Below, piece after piece: positions 26,224 to 37,809 of a DNA stretch of 64,000 nucleotides; the stretch's first letter is position 1, and the number at the start of each line of letters is the position of its first letter. Source of the stretch: Pandoraea aquatica (GTDB taxonomy: Bacteria; Pseudomonadota; Gammaproteobacteria; Burkholderiales; Burkholderiaceae). The notes below the pieces were generated by a model, which did not search any database, was not told the origin of the DNA, and was given only the letters and a program-made list of their open reading frames with translations. The translations under genes were made by a program, and so were the position numbers. The stretch lies in contig NZ_CABPSN010000004.1 of NCBI RefSeq assembly GCF_902459565.1, positions 558,001-622,000 on the forward strand, read 5' to 3'.

Positions 26224-26826
26224 ATGGATGTAAATCCGTCCGATGTGGCTGCCATTCAAGGAATGCAAGCTAGCACTGGTACCGAACGCCAGGCACCTCT
26301 CGGGTCAGAAATGGCACTCGCGCTGGAATCTACTAGGCATCGCGCCGTAGATACGTCGTTCGCACAGGAAGAGGGGATGGACCTTGATGGGTGCGCAGCC
26401 AAATACAAAGCGGCATTTCCAGCGAGCGAACTTCACGATATGCACGAGATTCTGAGACGTGTGCATGTGGACGCACATACCTATAAGGATTATCACGACA
26501 ATCCGCCGGGGCTCTCTTATGGGTTCACGGAAAAGGATCGTGACGAAAGGCGTACCATAATTTGGAATAATTTTAAGATTTCGCGCGTCGAAGCGGAACG
26601 AGAGATCGGCAATACTCGGAATACATACTTTCCTGGATTCTCGATCGTCTCTGTTGCGCAGTGGATTTCAACGACATCCGATCCAGTGGTTTCATCCAGT
26701 CCGGTGGATCCAGCCGATCCAGTGGTTATATCCGATCCAGTGGGTCCATTCGATCGTCTCTATGTCGAAGGCGACGTGTATGCGTTCACGCGAGATGCGT
26801 TCGTTGGCAAGACACTTCCCCGGTGA
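26224..26826 (+). CDS. Hypothetical protein, cargo of the degraded left element
   Basis: I do not recognise a family. The ATG at 26224 is preceded by GGAG eight bases away and gives 200 residues, beginning MDVNPSDVAAIQGMQASTG. There is no signal peptide or membrane segment. The middle is hydrophilic (LHDMHEILRRVHVDAHTYKD). Residues about 155-180 contain a DP-V repeat (SDPVV, SSPVDPADPVVISDPVGP) encoded by imperfect TCCGATCCAGTGG repeats. Base composition is clearly lower in GC than the flanking chromosome, which suggests foreign origin. It lies between the EamA gene and the remnant integrase start, so it may be cargo of an older element. Confidence 0.5.
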   Translation: MDVNPSDVAAIQGMQASTGTERQAPLGSEMALALESTRHRAVDTSFAQEEGMDLDGCAAKYKAAFPASELHDMHEILRRVHVDAHTYKDYHDNPPGLSYGFTEKDRDERRTIIWNNFKISRVEAEREIGNTRNTYFPGFSIVSVAQWISTTSDPVVSSSPVDPADPVVISDPVGPFDRLYVEGDVYAFTRDAFVGKTLPR

Positions 26827-26892
26827 ACGTTAACGAATTGACGTGTGGCTTCGGTGGCAATAGTCGTCGAAGCCATTGATTCGGCGCGCTTC

Positions 26893-26960
26893 AGGCGGCA
26901 CTTTGCCGTATAGCCTATACTTTCGCCTTTTCGCTCTCGTACGATGGCACCGATAGGTTT
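26893..26960 (-). pseudogene. Remnant of a second DusA-type integrase, N-terminal codons only
   Basis: On the minus strand the codons for IGAIVRERKGESIGYTAKCR then LKRAE match the start of the intact integrase at 36653 (MGTISVRERKDKSIGYTAQI then RLKRD). The first codon is ATC instead of ATG, and similarity stops at about 26893. Sequence between this remnant and the dusA fragment also aligns with the region upstream of the intact integrase. This indicates an older element, integrated at the same site, that has lost most of its integrase. Confidence 0.75.
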
Positions 26961-27020
26961 GGTCGGTGCTGCCCGTAGCATTCGGGTGCCAAAACGATCG
27001 AAAATCGGCCCTAACACCGA

Positions 27021-27126
27021 GAAATCCGGCACTACGCTTTTCGCTGTAATCGACTGTTTTGTAAGAGATTTTCAATGAATTTACCCTCCCGCCGCGTCAG
27101 CGTCGCACCGATGATGGATTGGACGG
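27021..27126. repeat. Left attachment-site repeat (attL)
   Basis: 106 bp match 36742-36847 with three mismatches (offset 9721). The repeat covers the sequence upstream of dusA and the first 17 codons. Identity ends precisely after GGATTGGACGG, where the left side continues CTTAAAG and the right side continues ATAAGCA. Recombination probably occurred within the conserved ATGATGGATTGGAC codons, the known site for DusA integrases. Confidence 0.92.
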
Positions 27127-27695: not shown

Positions 27696-28496
27696 TCACG
27701 CTTTGCCAGAATCGGTTGGCCGCTCTTTTGTCGCCATCCAAAAGTAGCCGTTGTCCTGACTCCAATACCACGCGTGGTCATCCAGCGTCGCACCGGTCTC
27801 CAGTGCTGAATCGTACGCAGCGACAATAGCTTCGGCGGCGCAATCCGCGAGGAAGTGTTTGACGGTCTCCGATTCAGGGATCGTGATGCCGCGACTCGCC
27901 CAATAGCGCTTCTCGTTCAACTGATGCTCGTCAAAGTTCTTGACGATGTATTTGCCGATGTAGGAAGCGATCTTGTGACGCAGACCCACTTCGCGATTCG
28001 GGTTGCGAACGTCGACGTTGCCGTTGTCCTCGCCGACGACGCGCAGCCACAGCGTCCGCAGCACTCGGTAGTTCTGTCGCCCCTTAACGGCGATGTGGAG
28101 ATGCCACGCACCGCGCTTCTGACGCTCTGCCACCGCGACGTACTGGAAGTTCTGAACCCGGCCTAGGAGGCGTCTCAGCGCGTCGAAATCGCGCTTGAGT
28201 CGTTCCTTGTCCAGCATGTTCTCGCGATAGGTCAGCGTGATCATCCTGTCTGCGCCGATGGCTTTGCAGCGCAGCCGCACTTGCTGTTTCGCCCGCTTGG
28301 CGGCCATCAGCTTGTTCTCCTCCGTAGTCTGCGACTCACCGCGTTTTGCGCGGGGCATGAGGTGAAGCGCTTGCGCCTTCAGGTACTGGTCAAATCGAAC
28401 CGCTGTCGCCTCAACCTGGCCGTCCTCAAACACACGTCGACGGACGATCCATTCGCGACGGAAGGGGGAGTAGTTCAATACGTTCGTGTCATTCAT
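27696..28496 (-). CDS. rep: Rolling-circle replication initiation protein (HUH endonuclease)
   Basis: This protein would nick the element's origin and start rolling-circle replication. The 266-residue frame has the three motifs of single-strand HUH Reps. Motif 1 is RMITLTYRENM at residues 84-94. Motif 2 is GAWHLHIAVKG with metal-binding His132 and His134. Motif 3 is IASYIGKYIVKNF with candidate catalytic Tyr179 and Tyr183 and Lys182. The type is found in small phages, inovirus-like elements and integrated islands. It is the first gene of the rep-prtN operon. Candidate origin hairpins lie 130-180 bp upstream of its start. Confidence 0.88.
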   Translation of the reverse strand: MNDTNVLNYSPFRREWIVRRRVFEDGQVEATAVRFDQYLKAQALHLMPRAKRGESQTTEENKLMAAKRAKQQVRLRCKAIGADRMITLTYRENMLDKERLKRDFDALRRLLGRVQNFQYVAVAERQKRGAWHLHIAVKGRQNYRVLRTLWLRVVGEDNGNVDVRNPNREVGLRHKIASYIGKYIVKNFDEHQLNEKRYWASRGITIPESETVKHFLADCAAEAIVAAYDSALETGATLDDHAWYWSQDNGYFWMATKERPTDSGKA

Positions 28497-31447: not shown

Positions 31448-32620
31448 ATGACACAGAAAGCTGAGGCCTTGCGTTTGCTTGAAGAGACTTTGAAAGAGCT
31501 CGAGTCACAAAAGGGTTCTGTTTTTGCGGCAATACAAAAACTCTCACGAGCAGCAACATTGCTCGGTAATGAAGATGTTCAGATTTGGTGTGCCATTCAA
31601 TTTGCTGATTCTCGCTATGTTCCAGAGCTGGAGAATTTGATAAAACTCGCAACAAGCAACGACGACCAAGCGTCGAAAAAATTTCAAAGTGCTTTAGACG
31701 TGATTTTTGAGAGGCTTAAGGCCATTGGGTTAAAGCATGAAATTCATTTCACAAATGATGAGCTGAGCCAAAAGGCGAGTCAAAGTGGTGGTGGATATGT
31801 GAGCGTCGGATTTATTGAGGAACGTTATGCTGACCTCGTTCGAACTAAACGAGGAAACGATGGAACTTACTACAAAAACAACCTATACAGCCACCTTGGC
31901 TACGTCAGAAATAGAGCGCACGGTTTTGCGTCAGATTTATTTAATCAGCTCAAATTCTCCGACACTGTAAGCAATAGTTTTGATGTGCTTAAAGCTGCGG
32001 TCGACGACAAGCTGCTGGACTTGAATCCAGTTCTCGCCGAGCAACTTATGCTGGCATTTCGGGGGGTGTCAAGCTCAAAGGACGAGGAGTGGTCACAAGC
32101 GCTAACGACTTGTCGGCGTTTGCTTGAGGGGATCGCCGACCACTTGCATCCGGCAGATACTCAGCCAGTCAAAGGGCGGGTTTTGGGGAAAGCTCAGTAT
32201 GTGAATCGGCTGTGGGCGTTTATGGATAGAGCCATTGAGTCCGAGAGTAACCGCGAGCTCGCAAAGGCGCACGTCGATTTCTTGGGGTCATGGATTGAAA
32301 AGACAAACAAGATAACAAATAAAGGTGTTCACGCCGAGGTTGGGCAACTGGAGGCAGTCAAAGCAGTATTCCATACATATCTTGTCGTCGCGGATTTGCT
32401 TGATTATCTTGATTCTGGAAAGACATCGAAGCCAAAATCCGATATCAATACCGCAACAATCGACGAACTGGAAGCGTTGCTCGATATCAGTAGGGCGACC
32501 GCGAAGGAGATCGTCAAGGCCCGAGTGCAATACGGCAAGCTCGACAAACTTCTACTCTCGAAGATCCGTGGTGTAGGTCCAAAAACAGTTGAAAAGGCCG
32601 TAGCCGCTTTCGCCCTTTGA
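31448..32620 (+). CDS. AbiTii-like protein with C-terminal helix-hairpin-helix domain, candidate defence factor
   Basis: A 390-residue soluble protein. The N-terminal 70 residues (ALRLLEETLKELESQKGSVF, LSRAATLLGNEDVQIWC) resemble the AbiTii domain found in abortive-infection proteins. A central helical part includes EEWSQALTTCRRLLEGIADH and NRLWAFMDRAIE, a segment seen in predicted defence proteins. Residues about 332-389 are two helix-hairpin-helix units (DINTATIDELEALLDIS, then LSKIRGVGPKTVEKAVAAF) of the ComEA type, which bind DNA without sequence specificity. Codon use and GC differ from the chromosome. Neighbours are TIR and SIR2 genes read toward it. A DNA-sensing abortive role is inference. 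Confidence 0.7.
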   Translation: MTQKAEALRLLEETLKELESQKGSVFAAIQKLSRAATLLGNEDVQIWCAIQFADSRYVPELENLIKLATSNDDQASKKFQSALDVIFERLKAIGLKHEIHFTNDELSQKASQSGGGYVSVGFIEERYADLVRTKRGNDGTYYKNNLYSHLGYVRNRAHGFASDLFNQLKFSDTVSNSFDVLKAAVDDKLLDLNPVLAEQLMLAFRGVSSSKDEEWSQALTTCRRLLEGIADHLHPADTQPVKGRVLGKAQYVNRLWAFMDRAIESESNRELAKAHVDFLGSWIEKTNKITNKGVHAEVGQLEAVKAVFHTYLVVADLLDYLDSGKTSKPKSDINTATIDELEALLDISRATAKEIVKARVQYGKLDKLLLSKIRGVGPKTVEKAVAAFAL

Positions 32621-32948
32621 CTACGACCAAGCGCTGTATTGCGTTGCAAGCCTACAGAAGGCCGCAAATGGAAATGATGAGCCGAGATTGGTCGGCTCTG
32701 AAAGTCGAGTAGCAGCCGGGGTTCGGCGACTACTCGTCGTCCGTTGCGCACTCTAGATTCAACCGGTCAACGCATAGCTTATTGCAATAGTGACGGCCGG
32801 ACGTGGTCGTCGCCTATCGGCCAACAAGCGAGCTGCACCGATAACCTTCAAGATGCTTGAGCGTCCGCCGCGTTTTGTGGTCGGACATTTTGTTATGGTC
32901 TACGCCGCCGTTCTTCGGTCGCTTTGCGTGGAAGTCGAAGAACTCCCG
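32621..32948. other. Convergent intergenic region between AbiTii-like and TIR genes
   Basis: No gene seen. Two short stem-loops, GAGCCGA/TCGGCTC (about 32680-32700) and CGAGTAG/CTACTCG (about 32707-32737), lie where transcripts from both sides would meet. Neither has a clear T run. Confidence 0.4.
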
Positions 32949-33758
32949 CTATGAACTCAGCTTCCGCCTAATTGCGTTCCCAAGTTCAGGGAGCCCCCTC
33001 CCATCGTTCCAGTCCAGATAACGGTAGGCTTTCATCATCGAGTCTATTTTTCCAGGGTCTACCCCAGCATTCAGCATGATCACTTTTTTGCTCCCTCTCA
33101 TTAATTCCATGAAGAATGTTGAGAACTCAGTAATTGGCCATCCGCTTGAGCTATCAAAGAAATTGTTTGTCAAGATGAAGACTCCAACCTCGGATTTTTC
33201 GATTCCTTCATTAACCTTAACGTAGATGTTGTCCCCATAGTCAATCTCGTAGCTGTCGAGCCAAGTGGCAATCCCTTGCGCTTGCAAGTATGCATTAATC
33301 GGGTTAACGATAAGATCTTTATCTTTCGAGGAGTGACTTATAAAAACTCGCGACTGCTCAGGCTTCATTGGTTTGTATTGAGGGTGATTGGATTCTAAGA
33401 GATCTTTTTCGATCCAATGGAACAGTGGGCCACCCCCCTCCTCAACAAGTACCAGATCGACCATCGTCTCATCGATGAATGTCATCAAGTTAAATGACAG
33501 CAATGCATTGAGAAAGATATTGTGTCTCTTAAGTTTCTCTGGATAATTGTCTCTCACCCATTTTTCGAATTTTTTGGGGTCATCCTGCAAGTTGACAGTG
33601 ATGTAGAACTCCAGGCTGTACGGATTGTTGTTGACCATTGCGCCAACCATCGTGACGTAATCTTTGTCAAAATTCCGAAGAATATCTTTTATGAACCCTC
33701 TTTCCTTTGTGCGTGACCCGTAATCGCATTCAAAAACATAAATGTAGTTATTTGTCAT
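32949..33758 (-). CDS. TIR-domain protein, candidate NADase of a defence pair
   Basis: A 269-residue protein. Residues 137-265 are a TIR domain: RVFISHSSKDKDLI (box 1), GIATWLDSYEIDYGDNI (box 2) and VGVFILTNNFFDSSSGWPIT. Glu211 in WPITEFSTFF is at the position of the catalytic glutamate of NAD-cleaving TIRs. The first ~130 residues are a separate region without a family I recognise (YIYVFECDYGSRTKERGFIK). The likely role is NAD+ cleavage, or a cyclic ADP-ribose-type signal, after phage sensing. It is the second gene after the SIR2-like gene on the same strand, 211 bp apart. Lower GC than the flanks. Confidence 0.82.
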   Translation of the reverse strand: MTNNYIYVFECDYGSRTKERGFIKDILRNFDKDYVTMVGAMVNNNPYSLEFYITVNLQDDPKKFEKWVRDNYPEKLKRHNIFLNALLSFNLMTFIDETMVDLVLVEEGGGPLFHWIEKDLLESNHPQYKPMKPEQSRVFISHSSKDKDLIVNPINAYLQAQGIATWLDSYEIDYGDNIYVKVNEGIEKSEVGVFILTNNFFDSSSGWPITEFSTFFMELMRGSKKVIMLNAGVDPGKIDSMMKAYRYLDWNDGRGLPELGNAIRRKLSS

Positions 33759-33969
33759 TTGTCTTCCTGCGGTGGGTTTAATTTGGATTTGTTTATTTGG
33801 ATGTGGGCGGTAACAGCAAAGGCTCGCTGGCGAGCATCGTCGATTTCAGCCTGGCAGATGGCTCGCTTTTTTTCGATTCAAGAAGCGCGACTTTTAATTC
33901 GCTCACTCTGACGTCCGAGCGCTATCACAGCACGACGAGCCTGCCACGATCGAGGGTTATCTATTTTCG

Positions 33970-35145
33970 TCACGCGACGCGCGGTTGATTGAATAGGAAC
34001 TCAAGTGAACCTTCCCCGAAGCCCTCAAAGAAGAAGCGCGAACGATCTGCGCCGGCAAAGCGGTACCGCTCGACGTAGGCGTCCCTCTCTGGTTGGCTCG
34101 GTTTGTAGTCGACGAAACGTGCATAGTCCTTAAGCAGGCCGCCCAACATCGGCGAGTCCCACCATGATGAATAGTTACTCAACATTTGGTGCAGCCCAAT
34201 GCGGATGTACTCATCATGCGGTGGCAGCGAAAATCCGATAACTGACACGCCCAGGTTGTACCCGCCGCTGCGCCCGAGTCCGTTCCACAGGCTCATGATG
34301 GGCGAGGCGTATACGAACTTCACATGCGAGGGAGACAGGATAAAGGGCGCATTGAAGCCACCGTCTTGACTGTAATAGCGTGCGACGTTCTGTATGGCAT
34401 GGAGGTGAACTAGCGGATCCTCAGGGGGCAGCAGACCATCGACCAGTGGTTTTGTACCGTACCTCGTCGGGTCATCGAACACGCTGTGCAATCTGGATTT
34501 GTCTAGCCCTTGGGCCTGAAGCGCGGCTCGCAGCTCCAAGAAATGACTATCGTCAAACCAGTCTAGCGACCCGTGCAGCTTAAGGAGGACTATTTCCTCG
34601 GTATCAGAATCGAGGACACCACCGTGCGTGTTAACCGACTTGAAACGATGGGGGAACCGCCGAAATCGCTTGCCGACGTGGGTGAGCGCGGCTTCGAGCA
34701 CTAAATCGTAGTTGAACGTTAGGACGATGTCCCTCGGCGACAGCAGATCGGCGAACTTATAGTAGCAGTCGGGAAGTTTGTCGGCAGCGGGGGTGCCATC
34801 GTGGATCACCTTGCCGATTGCTTTCCGGATCATTAGCTGCGACTCATTGCCCTCGCTGCTCCAGGTGTCGCTGCCCCGCAGTCTCAGGTAGTGCTCGATG
34901 TCCAGGTAAGACATGAACAGCTCTAGGTCCAGTGCATCTTTGGTCTGCCCAGTAACACCACAGTCATTGCAATACGACAGGTAGTAGGTCAAGTCGCGGT
35001 CGAACTTCGTATCGGTACCGTGCTTCTCCTCGATCAGCGACTTGACCGCGGGATACAACGCACTCGCCAGCGGCAGCCCCGCCGGGCGAGAGAAGCCCGC
35101 GCCGAGAATGAAGATGCGAAAACCTGGATGTGTTGGAGTAATCAT
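33970..35145 (-). CDS. SIR2-like domain protein, candidate defence NADase
   Basis: A 391-residue protein of the SIR2-like defence families. The nucleotide-binding start is FILGAGFSRPAGLPLAS (residues 12-28). Asn145 and Asp147 lie in VLTFNYDLVLE and His191 in LLKLHGSLDWFDD, the SIR2 NAD-binding and catalytic motifs. A late IGFSLPPHDEYI is also characteristic of this group. No SLOG, APAZ or Argonaute segment is seen, so it is neither ThsA nor a SPARSA subunit. The C-terminal ~100 residues could be a sensor. It is the upstream gene of the SIR2-TIR pair. NAD+ depletion is inferred from related proteins. Confidence 0.82.
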   Translation of the reverse strand: MITPTHPGFRIFILGAGFSRPAGLPLASALYPAVKSLIEEKHGTDTKFDRDLTYYLSYCNDCGVTGQTKDALDLELFMSYLDIEHYLRLRGSDTWSSEGNESQLMIRKAIGKVIHDGTPAADKLPDCYYKFADLLSPRDIVLTFNYDLVLEAALTHVGKRFRRFPHRFKSVNTHGGVLDSDTEEIVLLKLHGSLDWFDDSHFLELRAALQAQGLDKSRLHSVFDDPTRYGTKPLVDGLLPPEDPLVHLHAIQNVARYYSQDGGFNAPFILSPSHVKFVYASPIMSLWNGLGRSGGYNLGVSVIGFSLPPHDEYIRIGLHQMLSNYSSWWDSPMLGGLLKDYARFVDYKPSQPERDAYVERYRFAGADRSRFFFEGFGEGSLEFLFNQPRVA

Positions 35146-35549
35146 TTGTCGGGAAGCTGTCTCTTCTGCGATTGTCGGAATCTCGGGAAGCAGAGGGCTG
35201 CCGTCGAGTCATCCGGACATTTTCCGGGACCGCTGACTTGTACTCTCCACTGGGGAGTCACCTTGATATTCCATTATGCGGGTTCGACCGGCTACTTTGT
35301 TGAGATGAAATTAGGATAGCGAATGTTTCCTCGGGTTGTGGATTCAACTGGTCGAAAGTCGCCATTGCGGAGTTCTCTTTTTCGATCTGTGTATCCGCCG
35401 ACATCCCCCGCTACCCCCCAATCCCCCTCCACAAAAATCAAAGACTTACCCTCCCCACGTAACTCCTCAAAATAGTAAGCCCCCCAACTTGCCCCTCCTA
35501 CCAGACAAGCTTCCCAGCCAACCCTGCCCTAGGTTGATAGCCTGTCGAG
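35146..35549. other. Intergenic region between the integrase end and the SIR2 gene
   Basis: No gene supported. It contains the promoter region of the SIR2-TIR genes and a C-rich tract on the plus strand from about 35397 to 35530, which makes its base skew unusual. Confidence 0.4.
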
Positions 35550-36653
35550 TCAAATTTCGGCGCAATGCTCCGGTGCCGGGGAGGGAAGCAGTCTCGTAAG
35601 CCACGGCCAGTCAGCGAATCGATTGCCGGTCTCGCGGATATGTGTGTATCTCTTTAGGCTCGCCCAGCTTCGGTGGCCGGTTACCGCTGCTACACGAGGT
35701 ATCGACAGGCCTTGCTCGAACAGCCAACTGGTGCCTTCGTGGCGCAGGTCGTGAAATCTCAGATCCTGAATTTGCAGGAACTGGCATGCGCGAGTGAATG
35801 CCGCGCCGACGGCGTCGGTGGTGTGGGGGAAGATTCGGTCTTCGCCTTCGTGTTGGGGGATCGCGGACAGAATCCGCATTGCTTCCGGGGGAAGGTCGCA
35901 CCAGACGTCGTTGCCGATCTTTTGTCCTGGGTGCTTCATGTCACGAACGAGTATCCGTGACCCATCCTTATCCAAGTTCGACCACTTAATCGTCACGATC
36001 TCCTCCTGGCGTCGCGTCGAAAATATCGCGAACGGGATGATGTAGTGCATTGGCGCGCTTTTCGGATGCCGTTTGCGAATCCCTACGAAGTGTTCAAGCA
36101 GTAGGTCTAGCTCGGCAAAGCTTGCACGTCTTTCCCGTTTGGCTGACTTGGCCGTATGACCGAGGTGGGACAGCACTCGTCGCGCATCCCTCAAGGCTTG
36201 CTCAGACAGTGGATATCCCCAAGCCGGGCGAGCGACGTTGACGACCGCCCCGATGTGAGACATATAGTTGCTCGCGGTTTGAGGAAGTACGTCTAGGCTC
36301 TTGGCGAAATCAACGTAATCGGTGCTTCCCAACTGGCTGCAACGCTTCTCCCCGATTGGCGCTCGCGCGACAGCGTTCAATACTTGGGCCTTCGTCCGCC
36401 CGATTTTCTTGATCGATTCGTCGACGTACTTCTTAATCACCTCACTAAATAGAGGGTCGACCACCGCAGCGGCCTCTATGCCCCCCGGACGCGCCAGCTC
36501 CTTCTCCCTCTTGACGATCCACGCCGCAGCAGCCTGCCTACGGTCAAACGTCTTCGCCTCGGTGTAGGCCACCCGGCCGTCCCGCTTCAGGCGGATCTGA
36601 GCCGTATACCCTATACTTTTGTCCTTTCGTTCCCGTACTGAGATTGTTCCCAT
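35550..36653 (-). CDS. int: Tyrosine recombinase, DusA-type integrase
   Basis: This 367-residue enzyme integrates and excises the element at dusA. The N-terminal arm-binding region (ISVRERKDKSIGYTAQIRLK) is followed by a core-binding region around residues 64-165. The catalytic domain has Arg214/215 (FSTRRQEEIVTIKW), Lys240 region, His301 and Arg304 (FHDLRHEGTSW), His327 (VTGHRSW) and nucleophile Tyr336 (SLKRYTHIR). Its gene starts 142 bp from dusA and is divergent from it. Candidate arm sites (GTGCTACAC) lie just upstream of its start. The placement in dusA and adjacency to the attachment site fit the known DusA integrase family. Confidence 0.95.
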   Translation of the reverse strand: MGTISVRERKDKSIGYTAQIRLKRDGRVAYTEAKTFDRRQAAAAWIVKREKELARPGGIEAAAVVDPLFSEVIKKYVDESIKKIGRTKAQVLNAVARAPIGEKRCSQLGSTDYVDFAKSLDVLPQTASNYMSHIGAVVNVARPAWGYPLSEQALRDARRVLSHLGHTAKSAKRERRASFAELDLLLEHFVGIRKRHPKSAPMHYIIPFAIFSTRRQEEIVTIKWSNLDKDGSRILVRDMKHPGQKIGNDVWCDLPPEAMRILSAIPQHEGEDRIFPHTTDAVGAAFTRACQFLQIQDLRFHDLRHEGTSWLFEQGLSIPRVAAVTGHRSWASLKRYTHIRETGNRFADWPWLTRLLPSPAPEHCAEI

Positions 36654-36665
36654 AGGTTTTCGTCG

Positions 36666-36702
36666 GTGCTACACGGCTTTTTTCGGTGCTACACCGTAGC
36701 AC
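36666..36702 (-). promoter_or_regulatory. Right arm-type integrase sites (GTGTAGCAC motif)
   Basis: GTGCTACAC occurs at 36666-36674 and 36686-36694, spaced 20 bp, followed by GTAGCAC at 36696-36702. They lie between int and the right repeat and may also regulate int transcription. Confidence 0.5.
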
Positions 36703-36741
36703 TTGGGTGCTAAAACGAGCCTGAATGGCGTCTAAAATTGG

Positions 36742-36847
36742 GAAATCGGGCACTACGCTTTTCGCTGTAATCGACTGTTTTGTAAGAGATTTTCAATGAA
36801 TTTACCCTCCCGCCGCGTTAGTGTCGCACCGATGATGGATTGGACGG
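36742..36847. repeat. Right attachment-site repeat (attR)
   Basis: Matches 27021-27126 with three mismatches. It supplies the ribosome-binding region and first 17 codons of the working dusA. Confidence 0.92.
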
Positions 36848-37809
36848 ATAAGCACTGTCGCGTCTTCCACCGTCAGCTTTCGCGTCACACGTGGCTGTAT
36901 ACCGAGATGGTGACGACCGGTGCGCTGTTGTACGGCGACGTTGCGCGTCATCTCGATTTCGATGCAGTGGAGCATCCCGTCGCATTGCAACTGGGCGGGA
37001 GCGAGCCGCAGGATCTGGCGCGCGCGGCGAAGTTGGGCGAGCAGTGGGGGTACGACGAGATCAACCTGAATTGCGGTTGCCCGTCGGAGCGCGTGCAGCG
37101 CGGTGCGTTCGGTGCGTGTCTGATGGCTGAGCCGGCGTTGGTGGCGGATTGCGTGAAGGCCATGCGCGACGTGGTGCAGGTGCCGGTGACCGTCAAGCAT
37201 CGCATTGGCATCGACGATGTCGAGTCGTTCTCGTTCGTCGAGGACTTCGTGGGCAAGATCGCGGAAGCCGGATGCTCGACATTCATCGTCCACGCGCGCA
37301 ACGCGATTCTTAAAGGCCTGAGTCCGAAAGAGAACCGTGAGATTCCGCCGCTGAAATACGACTATGCCTACCGTCTTAAGCAAGCGTTCCCGCAGCTTGA
37401 AATCCTGATCAACGGTGGCGTCAAAACACTCGATGAAGTCGAGCTGCACTTGCAGCATGTCGATGGCGTGATGCTCGGCCGCGAGGCGTATCACAACCCC
37501 TATGTACTTGCTGAGGTCGACGCACGCTTTTATGGCGACGCGTCGCCGGTGAAGTCGCGTGAGGAAGTGGAAGATGCGTTGATCGAATACGCCGCGTCGC
37601 AAGTCGAGAAGGGCCAGTATCTCGGCGCGATCACGCGTCACGCGCTGGGCTTGTATCGTGGCGTGCCGGGCGCACGTGGATGGCGTCGCGTGTTGTCGGA
37701 TCCGAAGCGTTTGAAGGCTGGCGTGAGTGCGTTCGAAGACGCGCGCGCTCAGCTACGTGCAGGCGCATTCTCCGAACGTGACGAAACGCAATCGATCGTT
37801 GCTGTGTGA
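36796..37809 (+). CDS. dusA: tRNA-dihydrouridine synthase A
   Basis: This FMN enzyme reduces uridines 20/20a in tRNA D-loops. The 337-residue protein starts MNLPSRRVSVAPMMDWTDKH and has the catalytic-Cys motif INLNCGCPSERVQRG and FIVHARNAILKGLSPKENRE, followed by ILINGGVKT and VDGVMLGREAYHNP. Length is normal. Codons 1-17 come from the element's attachment site, and the two differences from the displaced copy are synonymous, so function should be preserved. The start lies inside the right repeat. Confidence 0.96.
   Translation: MNLPSRRVSVAPMMDWTDKHCRVFHRQLSRHTWLYTEMVTTGALLYGDVARHLDFDAVEHPVALQLGGSEPQDLARAAKLGEQWGYDEINLNCGCPSERVQRGAFGACLMAEPALVADCVKAMRDVVQVPVTVKHRIGIDDVESFSFVEDFVGKIAEAGCSTFIVHARNAILKGLSPKENREIPPLKYDYAYRLKQAFPQLEILINGGVKTLDEVELHLQHVDGVMLGREAYHNPYVLAEVDARFYGDASPVKSREEVEDALIEYAASQVEKGQYLGAITRHALGLYRGVPGARGWRRVLSDPKRLKAGVSAFEDARAQLRAGAFSERDETQSIVAV

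Follow-up and report, generated by a model that had tools for sequence, protein, structure and literature searches.

Adjacent SIR2-like and TIR-domain genes on a dusA-integrase island of Pandoraea aquatica: probably two independent single-gene defence modules

Organisation of the locus

The genes described here lie in a 64-kb stretch of DNA (the window) from the 5.96-Mb genome of Pandoraea aquatica. The initial annotation of this stretch named a SIR2-like gene followed on the same strand by a TIR gene, and both open reading frames were confirmed (Table 1), with SIR2 upstream and TIR 211 bp downstream. They are situated between a tyrosine integrase gene and a convergent gene encoding a helix-hairpin-helix protein. 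The catalytic-type motifs were likewise found intact: residues Gly15, Asn145 and His191 of the SIR2-like protein, and Trp207 and Glu211 within the WxxxE motif of the TIR protein, are all present, and we take these to be the catalytic positions of the two families. The genes differ in GC content, at 56% for SIR2 versus 43% for TIR.

Table 1. Coordinates of the genes and repeats of the island within the window.
Feature	Position	Strand	Remarks
Direct repeat, left copy	26973-27126		Likely left border of the island
AbiTii-like/helix-hairpin-helix gene	31448-32620	plus	Convergent with TIR gene; N-terminus weakly similar to AbiTii (E 0.0059), C-terminus with helix-hairpin-helix
N-domain + TIR gene, 269 aa	32949-33758	minus	TIR domain at residues 138-253, with W207/E211; top PADLOC model PDC-S66
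Spacer, 211 bp	33759-33969	minus	Homology to SIR2 carrier ends inside, at 33874; homology to TIR carrier begins at TIR ATG
SIR2-like gene, 391 aa	33970-35145	minus	Predicted NADase; residues 3-387 align with a SIR2-type fold
Tyrosine integrase	35550-36653	minus	Island integrase; adjoins dusA
Direct repeat, right copy, 154 nt, 88%	36694-36847		
dusA (tRNA dihydrouridine synthase DusA)	36796-37809	plus	NCBIfam 3.4e-167; first 52 bp within direct repeat

The direct repeat, which includes the start of dusA, likely marks an island of roughly 9.7 kb. An integrase at the 5′ end of dusA and flanking direct repeats are both found here, as in the dusA-integrase island family described in PMC4482086. Next to the left repeat, at that border of the island, a partial sequence similar to the N-terminus of the island integrase (26760-27032 and 26882-26942) would fit a tandem insertion of two elements that target dusA. 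A rolling-circle replication initiator (27696-28496; PHROG 3419, 2.6e-104) is perhaps the remnant of a filamentous phage, and a stretch 73% identical to it occurs near the island in the contig of locus L005. The C-terminus of the convergent gene is a ComEA-like helix-hairpin-helix, and this gene is possibly a third defence gene. It was rejected as a third part of the pair, being convergent and having relatives, all of them weak or partial, in just 14 of 298 other genomes.

The SIR2-like and TIR proteins

Against a relative of 90% identity the SIR2 gene has a dN/dS of 0.081, and against a copy of 98% identity 0.132; the TIR gene has a dN of 0.055 relative to an 88%-identical gene, at a dS near saturation (2.0). 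Given these low values, both genes are real rather than chance open reading frames, and both are under purifying selection with intact frames and conserved residues.

Pfam SIR2_2 matches the SIR2-like protein at 3e-5, its 24.6 bits being barely above the cut-off of 24.5. Residues Asn145 and His191 are invariant across 31 aligned rows, where L046 is represented by the 323-aa open part that follows the stop in an interrupted gene. Alignment A2 was made without L005, L063 (an open frame of only 219 aa) and L103 (on the same contig as L042), and alignment A6 additionally without L008. Loci L066-L100, which are weak or partial matches of 23-40% identity, and L007, a fragment of the L006 type, were not counted as members of the family. 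The closest fold to the predicted structure is the SIR2 subunit of SIR2-HerA (PDB 8sub, 8w9l and 8uae), with moderate Foldseek TM-scores of about 0.5. In this alignment the SIR2-type fold spans almost the entire protein (Table 1), and thus leaves little space for a separate ligand domain. In agreement with the initial annotation, neither SLOG nor APAZ appears among its Pfam matches up to E 1.

The TIR protein matches Pfam TIR_2 over its C-terminal domain at 4.5e-16. Residues Trp207 and Glu211 are invariant in two alignments, of six and four TIR rows, and a TIR fold that retains the WxxxE glutamate is a feature of TIR NADases, from which NAD+ cleavage is predicted. The N-terminal domain was described as unfamiliar, and indeed no Pfam family reaches its cut-off there, while a PDB profile search with this domain returned nothing up to E 10. 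Within the TIR family it carries a conserved DYG...NN(N/D)PYxLE pattern. The structure model is mediocre (pLDDT 69.3), with weak stretches at residues 78-87 and 107-135; in fold searches with it, the PDB lists were filled by the TIR domain and the viral list was uninformative.

Separate occurrence of the two families

Counting how often homologues are adjacent, as the initial annotation had advised, placed SIR2 and TIR side by side in two of 33 distinct SIR2 loci among the matches listed: the window and the 98%-identical copy. In a tblastn search of all listed loci, TIR adjoins SIR2 only in the window, in loci of its own genome and in that copy (L005/L010). No TIR match was obtained by tblastn in the DNA of the other 31 distinct loci of the SIR2 family among the matches listed. 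Downstream sequence of 1.2 kb or more is available for 29 of these loci, and 24 reach this length on both sides; the flank is shorter downstream in two and upstream in five. Many of the genomes compared are metagenome-assembled and may be incomplete.

Two close relatives show the same separation. The 90%-identical SIR2 relative of Bordetella pseudohinzii (L037) has no TIR gene in 15.7 kb, and the 88%-identical TIR relative (L101) has no SIR2 gene in 19.9 kb. At the DNA level the former is homologous over 33936-35244 and 33874-33938, ending short of the TIR gene, and the latter over 32920-33758, from the TIR start codon onwards.

Whole-genome searches gave a similar picture. When 29 genomes with a SIR2 relative were searched with the TIR profile, six matched, all from profile position 109 or later, so that no match in the 29 reaches the main N-domain. 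Conversely, a SIR2-profile search of seven genomes or records with the TIR family gave no match, and two SIR2 records included alongside were matched. With the window's own genome counted, SIR2 was found in three of 398 related genomes and TIR in 24 of 396, five of the latter spanning the N-domain; nearly the same genomes were searched, and the window's own is the only one common to both lists. A phylum-wide TIR-profile search matched 24 genomes besides that of the window, none from before position 89. The phage collection held no SIR2 match and four partial TIR-domain matches, and the plasmid collection held one SIR2 match (L008) and 133 TIR records, none of which covers 80% of the query. Clustering the neighbours at 38 loci revealed no partner: apart from SIR2, TIR and the cluster that includes the integrase, no family occurs in more than three loci.

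Judged by these sequence comparisons, the SIR2–TIR pair is not a conserved unit, and since homologues are not found together beyond the 98%-identical copy among the matches listed, a two-gene system is not supported. The initial annotation had put forward a new two-component system and took co-occurrence of homologues as one measure; on that measure the proposal fails. Its fallback, that these are simply two independent defences, gains support from the separate occurrence, the separate blocks of homology and the differing GC content. A likely false lead is thereby removed, and two single-gene candidates remain.

Mobile settings of the SIR2 and TIR genes

Integron cassettes usually hold one gene, and integrons have been treated as defence libraries in recent papers. 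In eight of 31 loci among the matches listed (L042, L044, L048, L051, L052, L053, L055 and L056), the SIR2 gene has an attC-like site no more than about 100 bp away, and in L048, L051 and L053 the SIR2 gene stands alone between two such sites. These sites were called by a strict pattern, by spacers read by eye and by a covariance model with an author-supplied structure, which replaced a first model of only six pairs. The strict pattern matched in seven of 33 loci, four times beside SIR2 and three times elsewhere; a relaxed pattern was rejected as too loose, as it matched 487 of 3000 random segments. The model was trained on nine sites from seven of the eight loci, L056 having supplied none, and its scores for those seven loci are circular because their own sites trained it. 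At E ≤0.01 it gave 22 matches in 41 sources (563,825 bases), comprising the nine training sites, three L103 duplicates of L042 and ten independent matches, which fall in L042, L043, L051, L053, L056 and L104. The control of 35 distant-SIR2 loci (451,514 bases) gave two matches, both of which may be real sites.

Counted at genome level, an integron integrase above the curated cut-off is present in four of the eight genomes with an attC-adjoining SIR2 gene, as well as in those of the TIR relative L104 (G284) and of L043 (G780), and in none of 14 control genomes. L104 has two attC-like sites, one after the TIR gene (E 0.023) and one after the gene that comes next (E 0.003). The covariance model found no attC match in the window. 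The SIR2 family occurs in several phyla and is probably larger than the loci listed; its gene is seen as a probable integron cassette at loci in Proteobacteria and one Nitrospirota assembly. Titles and opening abstract lines of papers on integrons with SIR2 or antiphage content hold no description of this family.

Some relatives adjoin restriction-modification or Abi genes, or lie in IMG/VR viral contigs. At L058 9122-10417, L060 9187-11115 and L045 4782-7880, no more than 60 bp separates SIR2 relatives from an HNH gene, a type I methylase gene and an Eco57I-type restriction gene. A SIR2 relative (L006, 4857-6173) and a TIR relative (L009, 4756-5562) lie in different viral contigs that have three homologous adjacent genes in common, presumably tail-baseplate-like.

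Interpretation of the gene pair

It is very probable that the locus holds two independent single-gene NADase defence modules of abortive-infection type, which a dusA-integrase island carries as neighbouring cargo genes and which are adjacent seemingly by chance. NAD+ cleavage, the trigger, oligomerisation and protection from phage are predicted from knowledge of the two families. By analogy with SpbK, the N-terminal domain probably serves the TIR protein as a sensor for some component of the phage, after which the TIR domains would probably self-associate and cleave NAD+; this sensor role is assigned by analogy because the model of the protein is mediocre. Like other defence SIR2 enzymes, the SIR2-like protein probably cleaves NAD+ once triggered, and would do so without HerA, SLOG or Argonaute.

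Among the alternatives, a role outside defence (for example in ADP-ribosyl metabolism or in maintaining the element), or loss of expression, is improbable. Promoter and terminator scans gave fewer sites than the shuffle means, which would suit silent genes but is uninformative; the intact frames, conserved residues, purifying selection and the restriction-modification, Abi and viral settings of some relatives argue against this reading.

There is also little likelihood that the TIR protein makes a cyclic ADP-ribose-type signal to which the SIR2 protein responds, as in Thoeris. The shared strand, the order of SIR2 before TIR and the presence of both in the 98%-identical copy would suit such signalling, and PADLOC ThsA models are matched by as many as 13 of the 31 members of the SIR2 family among the matches listed (best 9.3e-7). 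However, the window protein itself matches no ThsA model up to E 1, lacks a SLOG match and has little room for a ligand domain, and the two genes, with their differing GC and separate homology blocks, are not found together beyond that copy among the matches listed. A recent functional link is possible given the common strand, the 211-bp spacing and the joint presence in the copy, and it is just as doubtful that the genes were joined recently in this lineage, one NADase priming or feeding the other, as a young two-enzyme system that postdates assembly of the island.

Comparison with known systems

The defence HMM search suggested with the initial annotation returned PDC-S66 for the TIR protein and Aga_SIR2 for the SIR2 protein as best PADLOC models, both as partial matches. 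The expectation that the pair would fit neither Thoeris nor short Argonaute systems holds as tested. Thoeris (ThsA/ThsB) pairs the same two enzyme types, and the likeness lies in their adjacency; the pair described here differs in having no SLOG match, an extra N-terminal domain on the TIR protein and no conserved linkage found. Membership of Thoeris was rejected on the SLOG and ThsA results and the extent of the SIR2-type fold. The Aga_SIR2 model, which like the ThsA models stands for the SIR2 component of a partnered system and so speaks against a gene that acts alone, is matched by 31 of 31 SIR2-family members among the matches listed, and in the window protein it covers residues 141-201 only, which is the SIR2 part. 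Despite this best model, short pAgo systems (SPARSA/SPARTA) were rejected, as no APAZ or Argonaute Pfam match occurs in seven proteins of the region.

PDC-S66, a PADLOC phage defence candidate, is the best model for the window TIR protein (2.4e-21) and for seven of seven relatives, and resembles it in placing a TIR domain similarly in a protein of similar length. The match takes in profile positions 140-237 of 282 only and begins at residue 127, so that the N-domain lies outside the match and only the TIR part is included. PDC-S66 is called uncharacterised in PMC12482510. SpbK of Bacillus subtilis ICEBs1 is described in PMC11984713 and PMC12847820 as a stand-alone TIR NADase with an N-terminal domain and a C-terminal TIR domain on a mobile element. 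The likeness is one of architecture: the PADLOC spbK match is weak (residues 122-204, 1.7e-5; 89-199 in one relative), and the comparison is by build, not by homology of the N-domain. With its undescribed N-terminal domain, the TIR family is a concrete single-gene candidate.

The SIR2-like protein shares with SIR2-HerA (Nezha) a SIR2 fold in which Asn and His are conserved. The difference is that no HerA gene was found beside SIR2, which in three relatives stands alone between attC-like sites. Pfam detected no HerA-type family in the seven region proteins or in ten large neighbours of relatives (10 of 100 listed neighbours, three of the ten having no Pfam match at all), and membership was rejected on this ground. 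The family combines the shape of a HerA-linked enzyme with a setting in which no HerA gene was found alongside; if active alone, it would reveal how a HerA-type SIR2 acts without its partner.
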